DNA of 64,000 nt from Martinezella rhizogenes (lineage in GTDB: Bacteria; Pseudomonadota; Alphaproteobacteria; Rhizobiales; Rhizobiaceae), in assembly GCF_007002745.1 (NCBI RefSeq), contig NZ_SGNY01000002.1:434001-498000 (forward strand). The letters are read 5' to 3'. Of this stretch, positions 11 through 63,597 are shown in pieces (position 1 is the first letter of the stretch; each line of letters begins with the position of its first letter). The notes under the pieces were generated by a model. The model was not told the DNA's origin. It saw only the letters and a list, made by a program, of their open reading frames with translations, and ran no database searches. The position numbers were made by a program, and so were the translations under genes.

Positions 11-1663
11 ATGAAAAGAACCGGTGGGCAACTGATCGTCGAAGCGCTGAAGGCCAATGGTGTCTCGCGCGTTTCCTGCGTTCCGGGCGAAAGCTATCTG
101 GCGGTGCTGGACGCGCTTTATGAAAGCGGCATCGAAACCGTGGTCTGCCGCCAGGAAGGTGGCGCCGCCATGATGGCCGATACCTGGGGCCGGCTGACGG
201 GTGAACCCGGCATCTGCATGGTGACCCGCGGTCCGGGTGCCACCAACGCCTCGGCCGGCCTGCACATTGCGCGGCAGGATTCCATTCCGATGATCCTGTT
301 CATCGGCCAGGTGCAGCGCGAAGCCCGCGAGCGCGAAGCCTTTCAGGAAGTGGAATATCGCCGCGCCTTCACCGAATTCGCCAAATGGGTGGGCGAGATC
401 GATGATGCCCGCCGCATCCCCGAATTCGTCACCCGCGCCTTCACTGTCGCCACCTCCGGCCGCCCCGGCCCGGTGGTGCTGACGCTGCCCGAAGACATGC
501 TGGTGGAAGAGGTCGAAGCGCCCGAGGCAAAGCCCTACACATCAGTCGAAGCGCATCCCGGCCCGTCACAGATCGCGGCCTTCGCAAAAATGCTGGGCGA
601 GGCAAAACGGCCGATCTTCATTATCGGCGGCACGCGCTGGTCCGAGGAAAGCGTGGCGAGCTTCAGGGCATTTGCCGAAAACCACAAGCTGTCCGTCGGC
701 TGTTCCTTCCGCCGCCAGATGCTGTTCGATCATCTGAGCCCTTCCTATGCGGGCGATGTCGGCATCGGCATCAACCCGGCGCTGGCAAAGGAGATCAAGG
801 AATCCGATCTCGTGGTCCTGCTGGGCGGCCGCCTCTCCGAAATGCCCTCCTCCGGTTATACGCTGCTCGACATCCCCTACCCGTCGCAGAAACTCATCCA
901 CATCTATCCGGAAGCCGAAGAGCTTGGCCGCGTTTACCGTCCCGATCTCGCAATCTGCGCCGCGCCGGATGATTTCGTCGCCGCCCTCTCCTCCATCTCG
1001 CTTCCTGCAAACGCCGCATGGGCCGATCGCACGGCCGCCATACACGCGGCTTACCTCAATTGGTCCACCCCACCGCAGACCGGCCCTGGCCCGGTGCAGA
1101 TGGGTCCGATCATGGACTGGATCGAAGCCAATGTGCCCGAGGATGCGATCTTCACCAATGGTGCGGGTAATTATGCCACCTGGGTGCACCGCTTCCACCG
1201 CTTCCGCCGCTTCAACACGCAATCGGCGCCAACCTCCGGCTCGATGGGTTACGGCCTACCGGCAGCGGTTGCCGCAAAGCACCTTTTCCCGGAGAGGGAG
1301 GTGATCTGCTTTGCCGGCGATGGCTGCTTCATGATGCACGGGCAGGAATTCATCACCGCCGTGCGCTATGGCCTGCCGATCATCACCGTACTGGTGAATA
1401 ACGGCACCTATGGCACCATCCGCATGCATCAGGAACGGGAATATCCCGGCCGTGTGAGCGGCACCGATCTCGTCAATCCGGATTTCAACGCTTTTGCGAA
1501 AGCCTATGGCGGGCACGGTGAAACGGTGGAAAAAACGCAGGACTTCGCCGCCGCCTTCGAGCGGGCGCGTGCAAGCGGCAAGCCGGCGATCATCGAGGTG
1601 AAGCTGGACCCGGAGGCGATCACGCCAACGCGCACGCTGACACAGATCAGGACAAAAAGCTGA
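11..1663 (+). CDS. Thiamine-diphosphate-dependent enzyme, acetolactate synthase-like
   Basis: This 550-residue protein has the three-domain plan of the ThDP-dependent acetolactate synthase/benzoylformate decarboxylase superfamily. The N-terminal pyrimidine-binding domain carries the expected catalytic Glu near residue 49 in RQEGGAAMMAD. A central Rossmann-like domain spans about 190-330. The C-terminal diphosphate-binding domain has GDG at about 436-438 and VNNGTYG about 25 residues later, which together bind Mg-ThDP. Family members make or break C-C bonds next to a carbonyl group. The sequence does not fix the substrate, and no small regulatory subunit (ilvN type) lies beside it, so a role as the main branched-chain synthase is unlikely. 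The start lies close to the window edge, so an upstream operon partner may be missing. The class call is secure; the reaction is not. Confidence 0.85.
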   Translation: MKRTGGQLIVEALKANGVSRVSCVPGESYLAVLDALYESGIETVVCRQEGGAAMMADTWGRLTGEPGICMVTRGPGATNASAGLHIARQDSIPMILFIGQVQREAREREAFQEVEYRRAFTEFAKWVGEIDDARRIPEFVTRAFTVATSGRPGPVVLTLPEDMLVEEVEAPEAKPYTSVEAHPGPSQIAAFAKMLGEAKRPIFIIGGTRWSEESVASFRAFAENHKLSVGCSFRRQMLFDHLSPSYAGDVGIGINPALAKEIKESDLVVLLGGRLSEMPSSGYTLLDIPYPSQKLIHIYPEAEELGRVYRPDLAICAAPDDFVAALSSISLPANAAWADRTAAIHAAYLNWSTPPQTGPGPVQMGPIMDWIEANVPEDAIFTNGAGNYATWVHRFHRFRRFNTQSAPTSGSMGYGLPAAVAAKHLFPEREVICFAGDGCFMMHGQEFITAVRYGLPIITVLVNNGTYGTIRMHQEREYPGRVSGTDLVNPDFNAFAKAYGGHGETVEKTQDFAAAFERARASGKPAIIEVKLDPEAITPTRTLTQIRTKS

Positions 1664-1713
1664 CATGCCGCATGGACATGCCTCCGGCATGGTGTAAATC
1701 CTGACGCTCGCTT

Positions 1714-1804
1714 GACGTCATCCTCGGGCTTGTCCCGAGGATCCAACCACGTCGCGTTAAATCGATCGGTTGCAGATGCCCGGGACAGGCCCGGGCATGA
1801 CGTG
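1714..1804. repeat. Rhizobial intergenic palindromic element, copy 1
   Basis: Two hairpins lie back to back. The first is built on TCCTCGGGCTTGTCCCGAGGA and the second on TGCCCGGGACAGGCCCGGGCA, and the outer ends are inverted copies of GACGTCAT/ATGACGT. The same architecture recurs at 2659, 30681, 38791, 47663 and 51631, always between genes. It resembles the RIME/REP-like elements described in Rhizobiaceae. It fills most of the gap between the ThDP enzyme and the HugZ-like gene and could act as an mRNA 3' stabiliser or terminator. Confidence 0.8.
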
Positions 1805-1850
1805 GAGAAGTCTAACGCTTCTCTCAGCATCCACTAACTCAGGATAAGAC

Positions 1851-2615
1851 ATGCCGGACGTTGCCCCTCCCGTCATCACCCCACGCGGCGCAAAGATCGA
1901 GCCCTCGGCCGGCGCACCTTTCGAGGCGGTGCGCGTGGCCCGCGATGTGCTGCACACATCCCGCACGGCGGCGCTTGCGACACTCGATCCGGTCAGCGGC
2001 TATCCCTACACGACCGCCACCAATATCGGCATCGAGCCGGACGGTACGCCGTTTTTCTTCGCGGCCGGCCTGACGCTGCACGCCCGCAACATGGAGGCCG
2101 ACCCGCGCGTCTCGCTGACGCTCGCGCCCTTCGGCAAGGGCGATGCGCTGACGCTGCCGCGGCTGACACTGGTGGGCAAGGTGGAACAACTCGGCCCGGA
2201 TGAGACGCAACTCGCCATCAGGCGCTACATTGCCCGTTACCCCAAAGCAAAACTTTATCTCTCGCTTCCCGACACGAGGCTTTACCGGCTGCAGACGGAA
2301 GGTGTGCAGATCAATGGCGGCCCGGCCCGCAATGCCAGCAACATCACCCCGGCCGACCTGCGCACCGATCTCTCAGGCGCGGCGGAACTGATGGCTGCGA
2401 CGGAAAGCGAAGCCGCCCGCCTCAACGCCATCAAGGGCGAAGCGTCGCGGTTGGCAGTTCTCGCCGGCGCAAAGGCCGGCCGCTGGACGATCACCTCCAT
2501 CGACCCGGATGGTATCGATTTCGCCTCGGTAAATGATCTGGCGCGGCTGTGGTTTGCGGAGCGGGTGGAGACGCTGAAGCAGTTTGAGAAGGCGCTTGCT
2601 TTGCTTCTGAAATGA
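1851..2615 (+). CDS. HugZ-family pyridoxamine 5'-phosphate oxidase-like protein
   Basis: This 254-residue protein has an N-terminal FMN-binding split barrel of the PNPOx type (about 25-150; note RTAALATLDPVSGYPY and ATNIGIEPDGTPFFF). A C-terminal DUF2470-like domain follows (about 170-250, ending in ITSIDPDGIDFAS and a helical tail). This two-domain order is typical of HugZ/HutZ-type heme-degrading or heme-binding proteins, and many rhizobial members are annotated only as pyridoxamine oxidase-related. No heme-uptake genes lie beside it, so a role in iron acquisition is an inference from family only. The ATG at 1851 follows an AGGAT ribosome-binding site. It is flanked on both sides by intergenic palindromes and looks monocistronic. 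Confidence 0.8.
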   Translation: MPDVAPPVITPRGAKIEPSAGAPFEAVRVARDVLHTSRTAALATLDPVSGYPYTTATNIGIEPDGTPFFFAAGLTLHARNMEADPRVSLTLAPFGKGDALTLPRLTLVGKVEQLGPDETQLAIRRYIARYPKAKLYLSLPDTRLYRLQTEGVQINGGPARNASNITPADLRTDLSGAAELMAATESEAARLNAIKGEASRLAVLAGAKAGRWTITSIDPDGIDFASVNDLARLWFAERVETLKQFEKALALLLK

Positions 2616-2658
2616 ATGGCGCAAACGATTCACAAACCTAGGACAATCGTCTCTCTTC

Positions 2659-2743
2659 CGTCATGCTCGGGCCTGTCCCGAGCATCTGCCACCTGTCAGT
2701 TGTGATACGTGAGTGGATCCTCGGGACAAGCCCGAGGATGACG
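2659..2743. repeat. Rhizobial intergenic palindromic element, copy 2
   Basis: The two hairpins are TGCTCGGGCCTGTCCCGAGCA and TCCTCGGGACAAGCCCGAGGA, bounded by inverted CGTCAT/ATGACG ends. The element lies between the convergent HugZ-like and RidA genes and is the same family as the copy at 1714. Confidence 0.8.
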
Positions 2744-2770
2744 AAACGAGCGTTTCGAATTTCCCATCAA

Positions 2771-2805
2771 AAAAGGCCGGGCCGCATTCCGCGACCCGGC
2801 CTTTT
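2771..2805. terminator. Bidirectional intrinsic terminator between HugZ-like gene and ridA-like gene
   Basis: AAAAGGCCGGG (2771-2781) pairs perfectly with CCCGGCCTTTT (2795-2805), giving an 11-bp stem with A and T runs on either side. It can stop transcription from both convergent genes, and its main client is probably the minus-strand RidA unit that ends at 2827. Confidence 0.85.
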
Positions 2806-2826
2806 CTTAAAAACTCAGACGGATGC

Positions 2827-3168
2827 TCAGAGAGCAGCGGTCACGATGAACTCAACCTTGTAATCCGGCGTTGCCAATGGTGCACCGCTGGTGGCGCGGG
2901 CCGGCGGGTTTGCCGGGTCGATCCAGCCTTCCCAGACGGCGTTCATTTCGCCGAATGTGGACATGTCGGAGAGATAGATGATGGTCTGCAGGATCTTCGA
3001 CTTGTCCGAACCGGCAGCAGCCAGCAGGCGGTCGACTTCAGCCAGCGCAGACTTGCTCTGTTCCGTAACGCTGGTGCCTTCGCCAACCTGGCCGGCCAGA
3101 TAAACGGTGTTGCCGTGAACGACGGCGCCACTCATGCGCTTGCCCGGCTCGATACGCTTGATGGTCAT
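2827..3168 (-). CDS. RidA/YjgF/UK114 family protein
   Basis: This 113-residue protein matches the small RidA fold, a trimeric enzyme family that hydrolyses reactive enamines/imines released by PLP-dependent enzymes. Visible family features are YLAGQVGEG near the N-terminus, a long helix with KSALAEVDRLLAAAG, and IYLSDMSTFGEMN. The C-terminus, PPARATSGAPLATPDYKVE, keeps the Arg and Glu regions that line the family's active cleft. I chose the ATG at 3168 because CAGGAG lies just upstream; a longer upstream reading frame would run into the neighbouring gene. It follows the DUF442 gene by 49 nt on the same strand and probably shares its transcript. The subfamily and natural substrate cannot be told from sequence alone. 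Confidence 0.9.
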   Translation of the reverse strand: MTIKRIEPGKRMSGAVVHGNTVYLAGQVGEGTSVTEQSKSALAEVDRLLAAAGSDKSKILQTIIYLSDMSTFGEMNAVWEGWIDPANPPARATSGAPLATPDYKVEFIVTAAL

Positions 3169-35021: not shown

Positions 35022-35363
35022 TTAGCGGCGGATGACCGGGCAGCCACGCTCATTGGCAAAGACGATGCGGTCACGGCCCTGACGGTCGAAGCCTGCAACC
35101 ACGACGCGGCGCGGCGATACGTCAACAACGCGGGCACGGCGAAGACCCATGCGGCTTGCCTTTTCTTCCGCAAAGCGCGGCGAGCAGCCAAAGCGCGGGC
35201 GATCGGGACGACCCCAGCCGCGGCCTCTGTCATGGCCATAGCCATCCTGAACCTGAACTCTGAACTGAACATCCGAGCCAGCCGAAGCCGCAGGAGCGGT
35301 GGCGGAGATGCCGCCGAAAGCAATGAGAGCGGCAAGGCCGGCTTTTGCAAAGGTGTTGAACAT
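35022..35363 (-). CDS. Small secreted Arg-rich protein, unknown function
   Basis: This 113-residue protein has a signal peptide (MFNTFAKAGLAALIAFGGISATAPAASA, cut near 28). The mature part is basic and Gly/Arg-rich, with GYGHDRGRGWGRPDRPRFGC and a second Cys near the C-terminus (ERGCPVIRR). The internal SPRFAEEKASRMGLRRARVVDVS with RRVVVAGFDRQGRDRIVF looks like a small antifreeze-like or PepSY-related rhizobial family of unknown role. It is clearly a real gene by codon pattern and signal peptide, but I assign no function. Confidence 0.72.
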   Translation of the reverse strand: MFNTFAKAGLAALIAFGGISATAPAASAGSDVQFRVQVQDGYGHDRGRGWGRPDRPRFGCSPRFAEEKASRMGLRRARVVDVSPRRVVVAGFDRQGRDRIVFANERGCPVIRR

Positions 35364-35512
35364 GAACTCACTCCATTTGTTCTTCGCCGGCAGGGAACGT
35401 CCCTCAGCGATTGAGGAGACCCTAGTTCCAGCCGTCTGAACATTAACAGAACCGCATGTTCAGCAGGGGTTCATGGTTATTAACGGCAAAACACCCATTC
35501 ATGAATGGAAGA

Positions 35513-58928: not shown

Positions 58929-60064
58929 GCCGCCAGCGCCTCGCGCACGCAGTTGCGCCCTTCGCTCTTGGCCCGGTAGAGGGCGCGATCCGCCATTTCC
59001 GCCAGCGTCTGCAGGTCGCAGCGCATTTCGCCGGTGGTCGCGACGCCGATGCTGATCGTCACGCCGACGCGCAATCCACCGCAATCGACGTCATTGACGG
59101 CAACCGCATTGCGAATACGCTCGCCGATCATAGAGGCTTTCTGACCACCTGCTCCCGGCAGGAAGATGATGAATTCCTCACCACCGTAACGCGCCAGCAC
59201 ATCGGCACCGCGTATGCTGCCACCGATGCGTTTCGCCACTTCCTGAAGGACGCTATCACCGACGGCATGGCCAAAACGATCGTTGATCAATTTGAAGTGA
59301 TCGATATCCAGCAGCATGGCCGCATCGGCGGGATCGGGAGCCGCAGGCATGGCCTGGAAAAAGAAGCGGCGGTTCTTGACGCCGGTCAGCGGATCGGTGT
59401 TGGCGAGAACCAGCAATTTCCGTTCGGACCGCTCGGCCACCAGCATCATCACGAACAGCGCGATGGCGAAGTTCAGCATGATGATGAAGAAAAACGCATT
59501 GACCAGATTGATGATGGCATAGTCCGGGAGGAATATACTTTTCACCACGGATAGCGAAATCAGACCGGAAATCCCGGTGATTGCGCCGAGTGCCAGACGG
59601 GAGAGAAGCCGCTCCTTGCGCCATCTTGTGAAAAGACCACCCGCGCCCGCAAGATAGGCGAGAGCCGCGCAGCCATTGAACAGAGCCGCACGATAGGCAT
59701 TGTTTTCAGCCACCTGCAGCGCGACGATAATCGCCAGCAGGGCGACAAGACAGAGGACAACCACCGTTCGGCGACCCACAGGGCGTCCATCGCTCAAAAC
59801 TTTCAGACCGAGCCAGATCAGCGCATAACCGATAATGCCGAAAACGACACTGCCGAGCTGCCAAAAAGCCGGTGACATTATCCCCCATTCGCCGTAACCG
59901 GCGAGGGTGGAGCCAATTGTCATGGCAGCAAAGCCGGCGGCAAGAGCAACCGGGCCACGCAATCCACGATTTGACAACTTCAGATAGATGAAACTCAGCA
60001 ACCCTACAATATAAGAGCACTTTTGCATCAGTATGACTGTCGTGAGATCGAGTTCACCCAACAT
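58925..60064 (-). CDS. Membrane diguanylate cyclase (GGDEF, with I-site)
   Basis: This protein of 379 residues makes the second messenger c-di-GMP. About six hydrophobic helices form an N-terminal membrane sensor (about 10-205). A GGDEF domain (about 215-375) starts LANTDPLTGVKNRRFFFQAM, has the substrate loop with DIDHFKLINDRFGHAVGD, and carries an intact active-site GGEEF. Five residues before that, RGAD forms the RxxD inhibitory site, so the enzyme is likely subject to product inhibition. No EAL domain is present. The start is probably ATG 60064; a TTG at 60079 is the alternative. Its upstream region is the AT-rich island at 60080. Confidence 0.92.
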   Translation of the reverse strand: MLGELDLTTVILMQKCSYIVGLLSFIYLKLSNRGLRGPVALAAGFAAMTIGSTLAGYGEWGIMSPAFWQLGSVVFGIIGYALIWLGLKVLSDGRPVGRRTVVVLCLVALLAIIVALQVAENNAYRAALFNGCAALAYLAGAGGLFTRWRKERLLSRLALGAITGISGLISLSVVKSIFLPDYAIINLVNAFFFIIMLNFAIALFVMMLVAERSERKLLVLANTDPLTGVKNRRFFFQAMPAAPDPADAAMLLDIDHFKLINDRFGHAVGDSVLQEVAKRIGGSIRGADVLARYGGEEFIIFLPGAGGQKASMIGERIRNAVAVNDVDCGGLRVGVTISIGVATTGEMRCDLQTLAEMADRALYRAKSEGRNCVREALAA

Positions 60065-60079
60065 AATATGTCCACGCAA

Positions 60080-60212
60080 TAAATAAATAAAACGAATTCA
60101 ATTATCATCTATAAGTATAAAATTTCAATAAAAATAGCGAACCAAAAAATCGTAAATTATATTCATAAAAATCAAAATAAAATACAATATTTTCATAAAT
60201 TAATAAAACAAT
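60080..60212. other. AT-rich intergenic island
   Basis: This stretch of about 130 nt between the diguanylate cyclase start and the UdgX gene end is almost purely A/T with long A runs (AAATAAATAAAA, AAAAATCAAAATAAAAT). It probably holds the diguanylate cyclase promoter and could attract an H-NS-like (Ros/MucR-type or Lsr2-like) silencer. No gene is visible. Confidence 0.55.
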
Positions 60213-61667
60213 CTATTCGAATGATCTTATAAACTCCATATCCTTTTTAAAGAGCAGAATTTCCGCGTGCTTCGCCTCCCCGTCCGGCAGGCGCAGCAGG
60301 TAGGAAGGATGCACCGTGGCAAACAGCGTTCGCCCTTCCTGCATGGGCAGAGGGCGGCTGCGAACGTCGGTGACTTTCTCCTTGCCACCGGTCAGCGCAT
60401 AAAGCGCCGTCGCGCCCATGGCGACGATGAGCTTCGGCTGCACCAATGCAATTTCCTGGCTCAGCCACCAGCGACATTGCTGCACCTCACCCGCATCCGG
60501 CCGCTGGTGAATACGCCGCTTGCCACGTGTTTCATATTTGAAATGCTTCACGGCATTGGTGACGTAAAGCCGCCTGCGATCCACGCCGATCTCGCCCAGC
60601 GTCCGGTCAAAGAGCTGACCGGCAGGGCCGAGGAAAGGTTTTCCGGCAAGGTCTTCGTGATCGCCCGGCTGCTCGCCGACGATCATGACATCCGCATCCT
60701 CCGGCCCCTCGCCAAAAACAGTTTGCGTCGCCTTGCAATGCAACGGACACCGGGTGCATTGGCCTGCCTGCCGCCTCAAGGAGGCAAGCGAACCTTCCGG
60801 TTCCGGCGACAGGACCTCCTCCCGTGCCGCGGCGGCAACGGCCTGCAGGCGGTGGTGAAAAGGCTGCGGCTGGCTTGCCGCCTTGGCCGCCATATCCAGC
60901 ACCCGCGCCTCCGCGCCCAGAATGAGGCCGGGAATGAGATCCGCCTCGGGCAGGTTCTTCCAGTATTTTTTCGGCATCTCCGCCGTCATTGCTTTGATCT
61001 TCAAGCGGGCGGGATTGAATATATTGGCATAATAAGTCCGCCAGAGATCGTCCGTCTCGTCTGTTAAATCGGGTTTGGCAGCGGCCTCTCGCGATGTTTG
61101 CAGCACGCTCCCATCCCATCGCGCAGACCCTTTCGGCGTCGCGATCAACCAGTCCATGTCGGTGAACCGCCGCTGAAAAAACGGCGCCTCGCGCTCGACA
61201 ATAAAATGATCCGGCTCGAACCAGGCAACGAAGCGCCGTCGCCCGACCTGCCCCTGCGGTAAGGGTAACTCCTTGAAACGAACGAAGGCCGTCATCTTGT
61301 GACAGTCACGACGGACAGATTTTTCGAGCAGCCGTGCTTGTGATACATCCGGATCGGACTTGAATTGCAGCAGGGCGCGATCCTGCCTAAGCCGCCACAA
61401 CAGCCGGTATAGCAGCGCAAAACGGCCCCTATCGCTGTGACAGATCACCGCCTGTGCCAGCGCCACGAAAGCGGCCGGAACGGAGACCTGGGTTTCCCCA
61501 GGCCTGGGCGTCGGCAACGGCTCCCCGGCAAAATCCAACAGACCAGCTTCGTCATCCCGCAGCCGCCAGTCAATCGCCTCTGGCGGTATGTTGGCGGCAA
61601 GCGCCGCCCGAGCCGCATCGCGCCACTCGCCGAAATCGCCCCGCCCTTCCAGAACCGGGCCATACAT
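60213..61667 (-). CDS. DUF4130-UdgX fusion, uracil-DNA-crosslinking repair protein
   Basis: This 484-residue protein fuses a DUF4130 domain (about 80-245; RRDCHKMTAFVRFKEL, FVAWFEPDHFIVEREAPFFQRRF, DLWRTYYANIFNPARLKIKAM) to a UdgX-type uracil-DNA glycosylase domain (about 290-484). The glycosylase part has an iron-sulfur cluster motif (QCTRCPLHC plus later QQCRWW) and motif A GEQPGDHEDLAGKPFLGPAGQ. It also has the diagnostic KRRIH loop at about 383-387, whose His is known in mycobacterial UdgX to bond covalently to the uracil-derived abasic site, and motif B HPSYLLRLPD. The start ATG overlaps the TGA of the upstream radical-SAM gene (TGATG), so the two are made together. The operon is preceded by a LexA box. 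The role of the DUF4130 half is unknown. Confidence 0.9.
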   Translation of the reverse strand: MYGPVLEGRGDFGEWRDAARAALAANIPPEAIDWRLRDDEAGLLDFAGEPLPTPRPGETQVSVPAAFVALAQAVICHSDRGRFALLYRLLWRLRQDRALLQFKSDPDVSQARLLEKSVRRDCHKMTAFVRFKELPLPQGQVGRRRFVAWFEPDHFIVEREAPFFQRRFTDMDWLIATPKGSARWDGSVLQTSREAAAKPDLTDETDDLWRTYYANIFNPARLKIKAMTAEMPKKYWKNLPEADLIPGLILGAEARVLDMAAKAASQPQPFHHRLQAVAAAAREEVLSPEPEGSLASLRRQAGQCTRCPLHCKATQTVFGEGPEDADVMIVGEQPGDHEDLAGKPFLGPAGQLFDRTLGEIGVDRRRLYVTNAVKHFKYETRGKRRIHQRPDAGEVQQCRWWLSQEIALVQPKLIVAMGATALYALTGGKEKVTDVRSRPLPMQEGRTLFATVHPSYLLRLPDGEAKHAEILLFKKDMEFIRSFE

Positions 61668-62899
61668 CACAACAGCGACAATTGTTCGGGCTGCGGCGCA
61701 AACATCGCCCGCAGATCAGGCCGTTCAGTCAGTTTGCCCGGCGTCCAGCCGTCCGCGACGATAAAGGCCTTCACCTTTTTCAGGGACACCCCAAAACGGG
61801 CAACATCCTCCAGCCGTACCCGCCGAAACCGTCGTGATGACAGGATGGACGCCACCGCCTTGGTGCCGAAGCCGGGAACGCGCAGCAGCATTTCCCGATC
61901 CGCAGCATTCACATCCACCGGAAAACGGTCGCGATTTTTGAGCGCCCATGCCAGCTTCGGATCGATATCGAGATCGAGCATGCCGTCGCCACCAATCGCG
62001 GTTATCTCGCCAATATCGAAACCGTAAAATCGATAAAGCCAGTCGGCCTGATAAAGCCTGTGCTCACGCATCAAGGGCGGCTTGATCAGTGGCAGGTTTT
62101 TCGAGGAATCCGGAATGGGGCTGAAGGCGGAATAATAGACGCGGCGCAGGCCATAACTGCCATAAAGCCGGGCGCTGGTGGAGAGAATGGTGCTGTCATC
62201 AGCACCGTCAGCACCCACGATCATCTGCGTGCTCTGCCCGGCGGGCGCAAAGCGCTTTGTCCGACGCGTGCGCACCGTCGGCTCGCCGGCCTCCTCGATT
62301 TTCAGGCGGATATCAGCCATGGAGCGGCGAATATTTGCGGGCTGCTTTTCCGGCGCGAAACGACCGATACCGCTATCGGTCGGCAACTCGATATTGATCG
62401 ACAGCCGGTCCGCATAAAGCCCCGCTTCCTCTATGAGCTTCGGCGATGCTTCAGGGATCGATTTCAGATGGATATAACCACGAAATCCATGGGTAACGCG
62501 CAACTCCCGCGCCACGCGCACCATCTCCTCCATCGTATGGTCGGAAGAGCGGATAATGCCGGAGGACAGGAACAATCCCTCGATATAGTTGCGCCGATAG
62601 AATTCCAGCGTCAGCCACACCACCTCTTCGGCGGTAAACCGCGCGCGCTCCACATTGCTGGAGGAACGGTTGATGCAATAGGCGCAGTCATAAATGCAGA
62701 AATTGGTGAGCAGGATTTTCAGCAGCGAAATGCAGCGCCCGTCCGGCGCATAGGCATGGCAGATCCCCGATCCCTCCGTGGAGCCCAATCCGCCGGATGC
62801 AGCCGAGCTGCGTTTCGTCGTACCGCTGGAGGCGCAGGATGCGTCATATTTCGCCGCATCGGAGAGAATGGCCAGACGTTGCCTGATTGACTTCTTCAT
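61667..62899 (-). CDS. Radical SAM protein with C-terminal HhH, putative DNA repair/modification enzyme
   Basis: This 410-residue protein (TIGR03916-like) has a radical-SAM cluster motif CIYDCAYC (Cys68, Cys72, Cys75 in a CX3CX2C spacing). It also has GICHAYAPDGRCISLLKILLTNF just before the cluster, IYSAFSPIPDSS-like segments, and a C-terminal helix-hairpin-helix (about 330-385; NAADREMLLRVPGFGTKAVASIL). This combination indicates radical chemistry on DNA, like a distant relative of spore photoproduct lyase. The ATG at 62899 is 6 nt after the LexA box, which covers the likely promoter; an upstream GTG at 62911 would lie inside the box. It has no clear ribosome-binding site, so the mRNA may be nearly leaderless. 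It is the first gene of the operon with the DUF4130-UdgX fusion. Confidence 0.9.
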   Translation of the reverse strand: MKKSIRQRLAILSDAAKYDASCASSGTTKRSSAASGGLGSTEGSGICHAYAPDGRCISLLKILLTNFCIYDCAYCINRSSSNVERARFTAEEVVWLTLEFYRRNYIEGLFLSSGIIRSSDHTMEEMVRVARELRVTHGFRGYIHLKSIPEASPKLIEEAGLYADRLSINIELPTDSGIGRFAPEKQPANIRRSMADIRLKIEEAGEPTVRTRRTKRFAPAGQSTQMIVGADGADDSTILSTSARLYGSYGLRRVYYSAFSPIPDSSKNLPLIKPPLMREHRLYQADWLYRFYGFDIGEITAIGGDGMLDLDIDPKLAWALKNRDRFPVDVNAADREMLLRVPGFGTKAVASILSSRRFRRVRLEDVARFGVSLKKVKAFIVADGWTPGKLTERPDLRAMFAPQPEQLSLL

Positions 62900-62905
62900 A
62901 ATTAT

Positions 62906-62920
62906 GTTCACTATATGTTC
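62906..62920. promoter_or_regulatory. Alphaproteobacterial LexA (SOS) box in the radical-SAM/UdgX promoter
   Basis: GTTC-ACTATAT-GTTC is a perfect direct repeat with 7-nt spacing, the form recognised by alphaproteobacterial LexA (GTTC-N7-GTTC). It lies immediately before the radical-SAM start on the minus strand. A -35-like TTGACA (62936-62931) and a -10-like TATAGT (62915-62910) flank and overlap it, the spacer being 15 nt, so LexA would block the promoter. Confidence 0.85.
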
Positions 62921-63043
62921 TATTGAGAAATGTCAATCATGCCGCCTAACTTCATGAATGAATGCATAAAATTGCCCGCCTCAAATTTGCTGGCATTTCG
63001 CTGTCGTCTTCTGATATAGTCGGCTTAGTTATGATTTTGGCAT

Positions 63044-63079
63044 GGTTCCGGAGTTCCTCTCCGGAACCTGTTTCTTTTT
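63044..63079 (+). terminator. Intrinsic terminator inside the greA leader
   Basis: GGTTCCGGAG pairs perfectly with CTCCGGAACC (10 bp, TTCCT loop) and is followed by TGTTTCTTTTT. It lies 41 nt upstream of the greA start on the same strand. A terminator in this place implies either an attenuated greA transcript or a short leader RNA comparable in principle to GraL of E. coli. It is also downstream of nothing else on this strand, so its only visible client is greA. Confidence 0.8.
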
Positions 63080-63120
63080 GTGTCTGCAAGTAAAGCGACC
63101 GGAATGCGAAGGATAAAAAA

Positions 63121-63597
63121 ATGGTAGAAAAAGTACCGATGACTCAGGGTGGATTCGTCAAGCTGCAGGAGGAGCTGCGCTTTCGCCAGCAGGAGGAACG
63201 TCCCCGTATCATCGAGGCAATTGCGGAAGCGCGCGCCCATGGCGACCTTTCGGAAAATGCCGAATACCACGCTGCCAAGGAAGCCCAGAGCCATAACGAA
63301 GGCCGCATCACCGAACTGGAAGACCTGACCGCGCGCGCGGAGGTCATCGACCTTTCCAAGATGTCCGGTTCCAAGATCAAGTTCGGCGCCACCGTCAAGC
63401 TGGTGGACGAGGACAGCGACGAGGAAAAAACCTACCAGATCGTCGGCGACCAGGAAGCCGATGTGAAGGCTGGCCGCATTTCCATCTCCTCGCCCATCGC
63501 CCGTGCCCTGATCGGCAAGGAAGTTGGCGACAGCATCGAAGTCAACGCCCCGGGCGGCGCCAAGGGTTACGAAATCCTCGCGGTACAGTGGGGCTGA
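63121..63597 (+). CDS. greA: Transcription elongation factor GreA
   Basis: GreA rescues backtracked RNA polymerase by stimulating cleavage of the RNA 3' end. The 158-residue protein has the N-terminal coiled coil with the acidic tip ([27 protein letters not shown], about 34-60; the Asp and Glu of DLSENAEY are essential). The C-terminal FKBP-like domain includes [46 protein letters not shown]. Length is normal. ATG 63121 follows AAGGATAAAAAA. Its leader contains an intrinsic terminator, and the glycosyltransferase gene follows after 87 nt. Confidence 0.97.

Follow-up and report, generated by a model that had tools for sequence, protein, structure and literature searches.

What does an operon do that joins a radical S-adenosylmethionine (radical-SAM, here rSAM) protein to a uracil-DNA glycosylase (UDG) of the UdgX type and places both behind an SOS-type operator? 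The operon in question lies on the minus strand of a 64,000-nucleotide stretch of Martinezella rhizogenes DNA (contig NZ_SGNY01000002.1, positions 434,001 to 498,000; the window, in whose coordinates all positions are given), where the whole module, a LexA-type box and two genes, occupies positions 60213-62920. An original prediction, made from the DNA letters alone, took it for an undescribed system of DNA repair or modification. The word "undescribed" does not hold: NCBIfam links the families by name (rSAM_link_UDG, SAM_7_link_chp), and passages of two papers name the association (PMC3765255; PMC8565304). With the cut-offs exceeded, and with the same gene order, the same fusion, and an SOS-type operator, the window pair shows no difference from the linked families TIGR03916, TIGR03915, and TIGR03914 and is a member of them. 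We regard the pair as a genuine, widespread, SOS-linked candidate repair module, known as linked families; what the present analysis adds is its modular logic.

Partnership of the rSAM protein with DUF4130, and UdgX as an add-on

The upstream gene (61667..62899) encodes a 410-residue rSAM protein, which we take to be COG4277, that reaches 564 bits against TIGR03916 (cut-off 343.5) and 31.1 bits against Pfam Radical_SAM (cut-off 29.5). Its CX3CX2C motif, C68-X3-C72-X2-C75 with Met as residue 1 (62675..62698), is predicted to hold the SAM-binding [4Fe-4S] cluster. The C-terminal helix-hairpin-helix (HhH; 61820..61918) scores below the HHH_3 cut-off in the window protein alone (16.6 against 27 bits), but of 60 aligned relatives, at E values up to 1, 59 match HHH_3 (best E 4.3e-7) and 51 match HHH_5. 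The rSAM protein of Agrobacterium genomosp. 13 is 97% identical, which places the window in or near Agrobacterium. The downstream gene (60213..61667), whose start overlaps the rSAM stop codon as TGATG (junction TTGTGATGTATGG), encodes a 484-residue fusion of a DUF4130 domain (60942..61643; TIGR03915, 217 bits, cut-off 112.25) to a UdgX domain (60228..60938; TIGR03914, 339.9 bits, cut-off 189.95). Both GKRRIH and GEQPGD are present in its translation, and the KRRIH of the R-loop (60507..60521) contains the crosslinking His387. The cysteine motif, the HhH, the overlapping genes, and a DUF4130-UdgX fusion with a KRRIH loop had all been named in the original prediction, and all are upheld; membership in UdgX follows from the TIGR03914 score together with KRRIH and the motif A Gln.

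The pairing of the two genes was followed in the best 80 of 585 confirmed rSAM relatives (at least 585 occur in genome contigs), whose titles are alphaproteobacterial as far as we recognised them. The genes overlap by 1 or 4 nucleotides in 60 of these 80 loci, with the DUF4130 start codon taken as the one nearest the rSAM stop. Both families were also counted in 192 alphaproteobacterial genomes (the class sample) and in 299 genomes of the phylum (the phylum sample). In the class sample, rSAM exceeds its cut-off in 11 genomes and TIGR03915 is found in 12, the twelfth of which (G152) is decayed, with an rSAM fragment, a broken DUF4130 frame, and a retained box. The Caulobacter vibrioides control genome matches rSAM, TIGR03915, and TIGR03914. 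In the phylum sample the counts are 72 and 75. All 72 rSAM-bearing genomes have TIGR03915 downstream on the same strand, with a gap between the two matches of less than 400 nucleotides in 67 and of 471-3075 nucleotides in the other five, and TIGR03915 occurs without rSAM in G349, G359, and G406. The rSAM protein and DUF4130 are near-obligate partners, a relationship that is new here; the original prediction had proposed asking whether the two genes always co-occur, and their constant pairing supports it. Besides the pair and its antisense frames, no neighbouring cluster recurs in over 10 loci of the 80; the genes that we presume to be carB-like (10 of 80) and greA-like (7 of 80) look like Rhizobiaceae synteny.

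UdgX is a separable add-on that is able to stand alone, which is also new here. It is fused to DUF4130 in 76 of 90 DUF4130 proteins (from 92 loci, less L014, which is cut short, and L020, which is decayed). Catalytic residues are intact in the fused relatives: all 76 keep the R-loop His, and 75 of the 76 keep the Gln of motif A. The roles of these residues are described in passages of the UdgX work (PMC10359453). Ten of the 80 relatives have rSAM and DUF4130 with no fused UdgX, UdgX elsewhere in those genomes being outside this count, and a tree of rSAM proteins (81 rows) requires no fewer than six changes to account for the ten unfused ones, also when only well supported branches are used. 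In the five most distant relatives inspected, no fused UdgX stands beside rSAM. Across the class sample, UdgX exceeds its cut-off in 17 of 192 genomes: in seven as part of a fused pair, in one (G026) as a separate protein in addition to an unfused pair, and in nine without TIGR03915. Four of the five class-sample genomes with an unfused pair (one of them decayed) have no UdgX above the cut-off.

A structural model of the fusion protein (mean pLDDT 91.9, where pLDDT is the predicted local distance difference test) was built from the window sequence and 62 of the 79 remaining named DUF4130 proteins; L070, which has an X in its protein, was left out of the reference lists for structure prediction. 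The structural matches listed fall in the UDG domain, residues 289-484, with Mycobacterium smegmatis UdgX as the best solved neighbour (Z 30.1, root-mean-square deviation (rmsd) 1.3, 188 residues aligned), and the named matches in a viral structure library are mostly UDGs and polymerases. The domain is 45-47% identical to M. smegmatis UdgX (Z 28.5-30.1 to its solved structures) and shares with it the GEQPG, KRRIH, and HPSxLLR motifs given in passages of PMC10359453. Unlike the M. smegmatis protein, whose solved chains have at most 229 residues, it is fused to DUF4130 and lies in an operon with a LexA-type box. A passage of the same paper reports UdgX activity for a protein of Bradyrhizobium diazoefficiens, which may or may not be the fusion (PMC10359453). 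In a separate observation, locus L208 (G439:C5:277000-282000) contains a second, degenerate DUF4130-UdgX copy with no rSAM, no box in the 5 kb inspected, several DUF4130 invariants lost, and the UdgX loop QRRVH.

The DUF4130 tail after loss of rSAM in one genus

Among 117 genomes from the genus of G359, TIGR03915 is found in 110 and rSAM in 67, and 43 of the 110 have DUF4130 with no rSAM match (here called orphans). All 43 orphans have a fused UdgX with the R-loop His. A divergent imuA-like gene accompanies 42 of them (the exception is L294), an imuB-like gene 40 (exceptions L206, L263, and L294), and a LexA-type box within 400 nucleotides 40 (exceptions L269, L276, and L294). In rSAM-bearing members of the genus, a box lies within 250 nucleotides in 66 of 67, and the imuA-like gene is divergent in all 36 loci where one was found. 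The match behind the ImuA label is weak, at 37.7 bits against a cut-off of 150, and the ImuB label comes with both Pfam IMS and IMS_C above their cut-offs. An N-terminal remnant of rSAM persists in two of the 43 orphans (L284 and L299), which indicates that the loss happened in place, at least there.

Residues were compared between 65 proteins with rSAM (67 less the short L336 and L338) and 41 orphans (43 less the short L276 and L299); a smaller comparison with the 30 best-scoring of the 67 rSAM-bearing loci led to the same conclusion. The catalytic residues of UdgX, including E332, Q333, D336, N371, R385, H387, H453, and R459, are kept in 41 of 41 orphans, as are D105, F131, W149, P152, H154, F164, R167, W173, W209, and N238 of DUF4130. 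Other DUF4130 residues, present in 65 of 65 proteins with rSAM, persist in a minority of the 41 orphans: H123 in 13, K124 in 8, F128 in 5, Y212 in 13, and M227 in 10. The C-terminal tail of DUF4130 (residues 201-245; 60933..61067) is less than 50% identical to that of the window in 29 of 41 orphans and in none of the 65 proteins with rSAM.

For rates of change, each sequence was compared with its nearest neighbour in its own group, so that a reciprocal pair counts twice. Amino-acid change in the tail is 16.0% without rSAM and 4.1% with it, at four-fold-site divergences in the tail of 0.208 and 0.187, respectively. The corresponding amino-acid changes are 9.1% and 8.8% in the DUF4130 core (residues 65-200) and 4.9% and 4.6% in UdgX. 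Because the tail changes about four times faster at similar synonymous divergence, and the core and UdgX do not, the tail would serve rSAM. By this measure, relaxation after rSAM loss is confined to residues 201-245, and single core residues (H123, K124, and F128) are lost too. From these comparisons, which cover one genus with few supported independent losses, we conclude that the DUF4130 C-terminal tail belongs to rSAM, which is new here; in the open-access literature that we searched, neither an activity of the pair nor a tail dependence was found in print.

The LexA-type operator

The box GAACATATAGTGAAC lies at 62906..62920, 6 nucleotides upstream of the rSAM ATG, and follows a GAAC-N7-GAAC-type motif that we take to be the alphaproteobacterial LexA operator. 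In 77 of the 80 relatives (L083, L116, and L127 lack an exact box), a GAAC-N7-GAAC or GTTC-N7-GTTC box is found between -100 and +15 relative to where the rSAM match starts. The remaining 115-bp stretches of these 80 loci contain one in 22 of 8529 cases, and the reversed motif is found at the rSAM in 2 of 80. Its spacer is A+T-rich in these loci, with ATA as the commonest beginning. In the class sample a box lies close upstream in 11 of 12 loci, the window's own locus counted. The pattern occurs four times in the 64-kb window against a shuffle mean of 1.81, with four or more in 8 of 100 shuffles, and a chance box was therefore rejected for its position (77/80 versus 22/8529) and not for mere presence in 64 kb. 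This genome's lexA gene, confirmed by model, has the same type of box upstream, and lexA alone was so confirmed among the 14 stretches inspected around other box-like sites of the genome. A sigma-70 scan of 59900-63150 found promoter-like sites no commoner than in shuffles (2 versus 2.1). A LexA box ahead of the pair was part of the original prediction; it is present, and its recurrence at this position among relatives makes an SOS-type operator for the operon a supported assignment.

Several published statements bear on related operons or proteins. COG1573-COG4277 is described as a putative UDG-based repair operon with SOS regulation reported in Verrucomicrobia and Alphaproteobacteria, and with motif evidence for SOS control of such operons in Bacteroidetes (PMC8565304, in passages). 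LexA control is predicted for CAC3343-CAC3344 of Clostridium acetobutylicum in a passage of PMC3828012, and the LexA-regulated genes listed for Streptomyces and other bacteria include a radical SAM protein, of a family unstated in the passages (PMC9380542; PMC7739468). According to a passage of PMC13130816, a humidity of 8% raises the level of an Acinetobacter sp. Tol 5 gene that is annotated as a putative DNA modification/repair rSAM.

Further box-like sites were seen. One lies between two reading frames of this genome that are presumably uvrA and ssb. In the window, two close box-like sites occupy 35438-35472, GAACATTAACAGAAC and, on the opposite strand, GAACCCCTGCTGAAC, about 75 nucleotides upstream of a 113-residue frame with a signal-like N-terminus (35022-35363, minus strand). 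In L218 (G000:C4:54600-57800), another box overlaps the start region of a 371-residue reading frame that has no NCBIfam match at E 0.001 and that we assume, from its resemblance, to be akin to a DNA alkylation repair HEAT-repeat protein.

Candidate mechanism and alternatives

The rSAM protein has only six cysteines (residues 22, 47, 56, 68, 72, and 75), and all are invariant in 105 of 105 sequences, which include five relatives at 48-52% identity. C22, C47, and C56 (in the stretch 62732..62836) precede the CX3CX2C motif, and an invariant His and Asp-Gly-Arg lie next to them. These three invariant cysteines in addition to the SAM motif, an observation new here, suggest an auxiliary Fe-S cluster, for which they are the candidate ligands. 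The rSAM model, predicted from the window, 58 of 79 rSAMs, and L148, has a pLDDT of 83.2, with residues 22-45 below 50. Among its best neighbours are lipoyl synthase (4u0o, Z 16.4, rmsd 3.3, 227 residues aligned) and HydE (7o1o, Z 16.2, rmsd 2.4, 213 residues aligned), at 14% and 16% identity, respectively, and the leading matches lie within 1 Z of one another. Lipoyl synthase (LipA) has an auxiliary cluster and an N-terminal cysteine triad, C-X4-C-X5-C, before its CX3CX2C motif, whereas the spacing in the window protein is C-X24-C-X8-C.

We consider it probable, with room for doubt, that the module combines an SOS-induced, DNA-lesion-processing rSAM-DUF4130 enzyme with an add-on uracil trap, two separable activities on one scaffold. 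The operon, the box, the pairing, the domain identities, the residue conservation, the tail dependence (in one genus), and the separability of UdgX are the parts of this proposal that sequence comparison shows. In the proposed mechanism, rSAM would carry out SAM-derived radical chemistry on a damaged nucleotide, which the HhH domain may help bring to it, and a second Fe-S cluster probably assists this chemistry. DUF4130 would be the dedicated partner of rSAM, with its C-terminal tail either docking rSAM or completing the substrate site. The fused UdgX, from the chemistry of its homologues, would excise uracil and stay covalently on the abasic site, guarding that site against cleavage pending translesion synthesis or RecA-dependent repair. 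More tentatively, and as a possibility on which we would not rely, the module may represent an rSAM DNA repair pathway distinct from that of spore photoproduct lyase. Here a two-cluster rSAM would work only with DUF4130, whose tail would form part of the enzyme. A covalent uracil trap, retained on its own by some bacteria next to mutagenic ImuA-ImuB-like genes, would receive the product of this enzyme or have lesions in common with it. Spore photoproduct lyase is, to our knowledge, the sole radical-SAM DNA repair enzyme. A widespread second candidate (72 of 299 genomes in the phylum sample, 11 of 192 in the class sample) would mark a gap in the picture of the SOS response, and the series of rSAM losses makes the module directly testable.

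Several points weigh against this proposal. Supported branches force at least three changes of rSAM state in a tree of 106 rows (17 on the best tree) and at least four in a tree of 72 rows that includes the window, all within one genus. The independent pairs number three, too few for a sign test, and where they differ, among the results listed, they do so in the same direction. Between orphans and their nearest rSAM-bearing relatives, four-fold-site divergence is higher in DUF4130 (0.391) than in UdgX (0.227). This excess implies that recombination or a separate history acted, so that the gap in raw DUF4130 identity (0.667 in orphans, 0.830 with rSAM) is partly not relaxed constraint; the four-fold sites rule out relaxed constraint alone as its explanation, and for this reason we relied on nearest neighbours within each group. 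The tail is intact in 5 of 41 orphans, which are perhaps recent losses. Some of the residues lost in orphans (H123, K124, and M227) are variable in distant rSAM-bearing relatives as well. The five most distant DUF4130 copies inspected match weakly (18-63 bits); in them R130, F131, P152, F164, R167, and R221 persist, H123, K124, E151, H154, and D105 vary, and E241 is kept in four and falls in a gap in the fifth. We infer that this pattern fits binding of nucleic acid or of a partner better than it fits a hydrolase, whereas a passage of PMC3765255 predicts DUF4130 to be itself an enzyme. The second Fe-S cluster is suggested by cysteines alone, and we found no measured SOS induction, phenotype, or activity of the pair in this organism.

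A first alternative, an unlikely one, is that the lesion is reversed directly, as by spore photoproduct lyase. Cytosine in pyrimidine dimers deaminates, and under this alternative rSAM would split a UV pyrimidine lesion and UdgX would handle the uracil arising from the deaminated dimer cytosine. The reaction class and the SOS-type control fit. The hydrogen-donor cysteine of spore photoproduct lyase lies after the SAM motif, and the window rSAM has no cysteine beyond C75; it also differs from that enzyme in its extra N-terminal cysteines and C-terminal HhH. The spore photoproduct lyase model TIGR04070 has no match in the window's genome at E 0.001, a search that found the Bacillus subtilis control, and is absent among the 15 families matched by the window rSAM at E values up to 1. 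The parallel drawn in the original prediction therefore stands for the reaction class, radical-SAM DNA repair, and fails at the level of the family model. In favour of this alternative, passages of PMC3765255 associate DUF4130 with a UDG and with a partner rSAM called SplB-like.

An abasic-site shield for SOS tolerance, comparable to HMCES/SRAP, is also rather improbable. Under this view the principal role would fall to UdgX-DUF4130, which would capture uracil or abasic sites where forks stall, in the service of translesion synthesis, and rSAM would be an optional helper. The 43 genomes with DUF4130-UdgX but no rSAM, 42 of them with a divergent imuA-like gene, agree with this alternative, and the UdgX authors propose protection of abasic sites and RecA-dependent resolution (PMC10359453, in passages). 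Against it stand the 10 of 80 relatives with rSAM-DUF4130 but no fused UdgX, which require at least six gains or losses, and the five most distant relatives inspected, where no fused UdgX was seen beside rSAM.

The two remaining alternatives have very little probability in our judgement. Resolution of the covalent UdgX-DNA adduct by rSAM (with DUF4130), a DNA-protein adduct having been among the substrates originally predicted, agrees with the placement of both genes in one operon and is disfavoured by the occurrence of each partner without the other (rSAM-DUF4130 with no fused UdgX in 10 of 80, DUF4130-UdgX with no rSAM in 43 of 110) and by the equal amino-acid change of UdgX after rSAM loss. 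A DNA modification or phage defence system, to which the 158 plasmid records with an rSAM relative and the patchy distribution (11 of 192) would lend themselves, is equally remote, as neither protein is matched by any PADLOC model (0 families at E 0.01) and a LexA-type box precedes 77 of 80 relatives.

As to carriage, an rSAM relative occurs in 158 plasmid records, including Agrobacterium, Phaeobacter, Paracoccus, and Leisingera, 142 of which are predicted to be non-mobilizable. In a record titled Acinetobacter phage MD-2021a (H42/L203; CAKLQH020000003.1), the pair lies near glyS-glyQ and other metabolic or housekeeping genes, so that the record looks like Acinetobacter chromosome, and we claim no phage carriage. 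Faecal "Bacteriophage sp." records with relatives of the pair bear no annotation, and of two matches in viral contigs, one (L148) has, by eye, its DUF4130 frame start at the contig end. In L148 and in L207 (G367), rSAM and DUF4130 have between them a small protein that we take to be hemerythrin-like. In a Fulvimarina metagenome-assembled genome (L136, 7230-8275), the two genes are separated by about 1 kb containing short frames that give a toxin-antitoxin-like impression. In the window itself, about 130 bp of very A+T-rich DNA (60080-60212) lie between the end of the operon and the adjoining gene.

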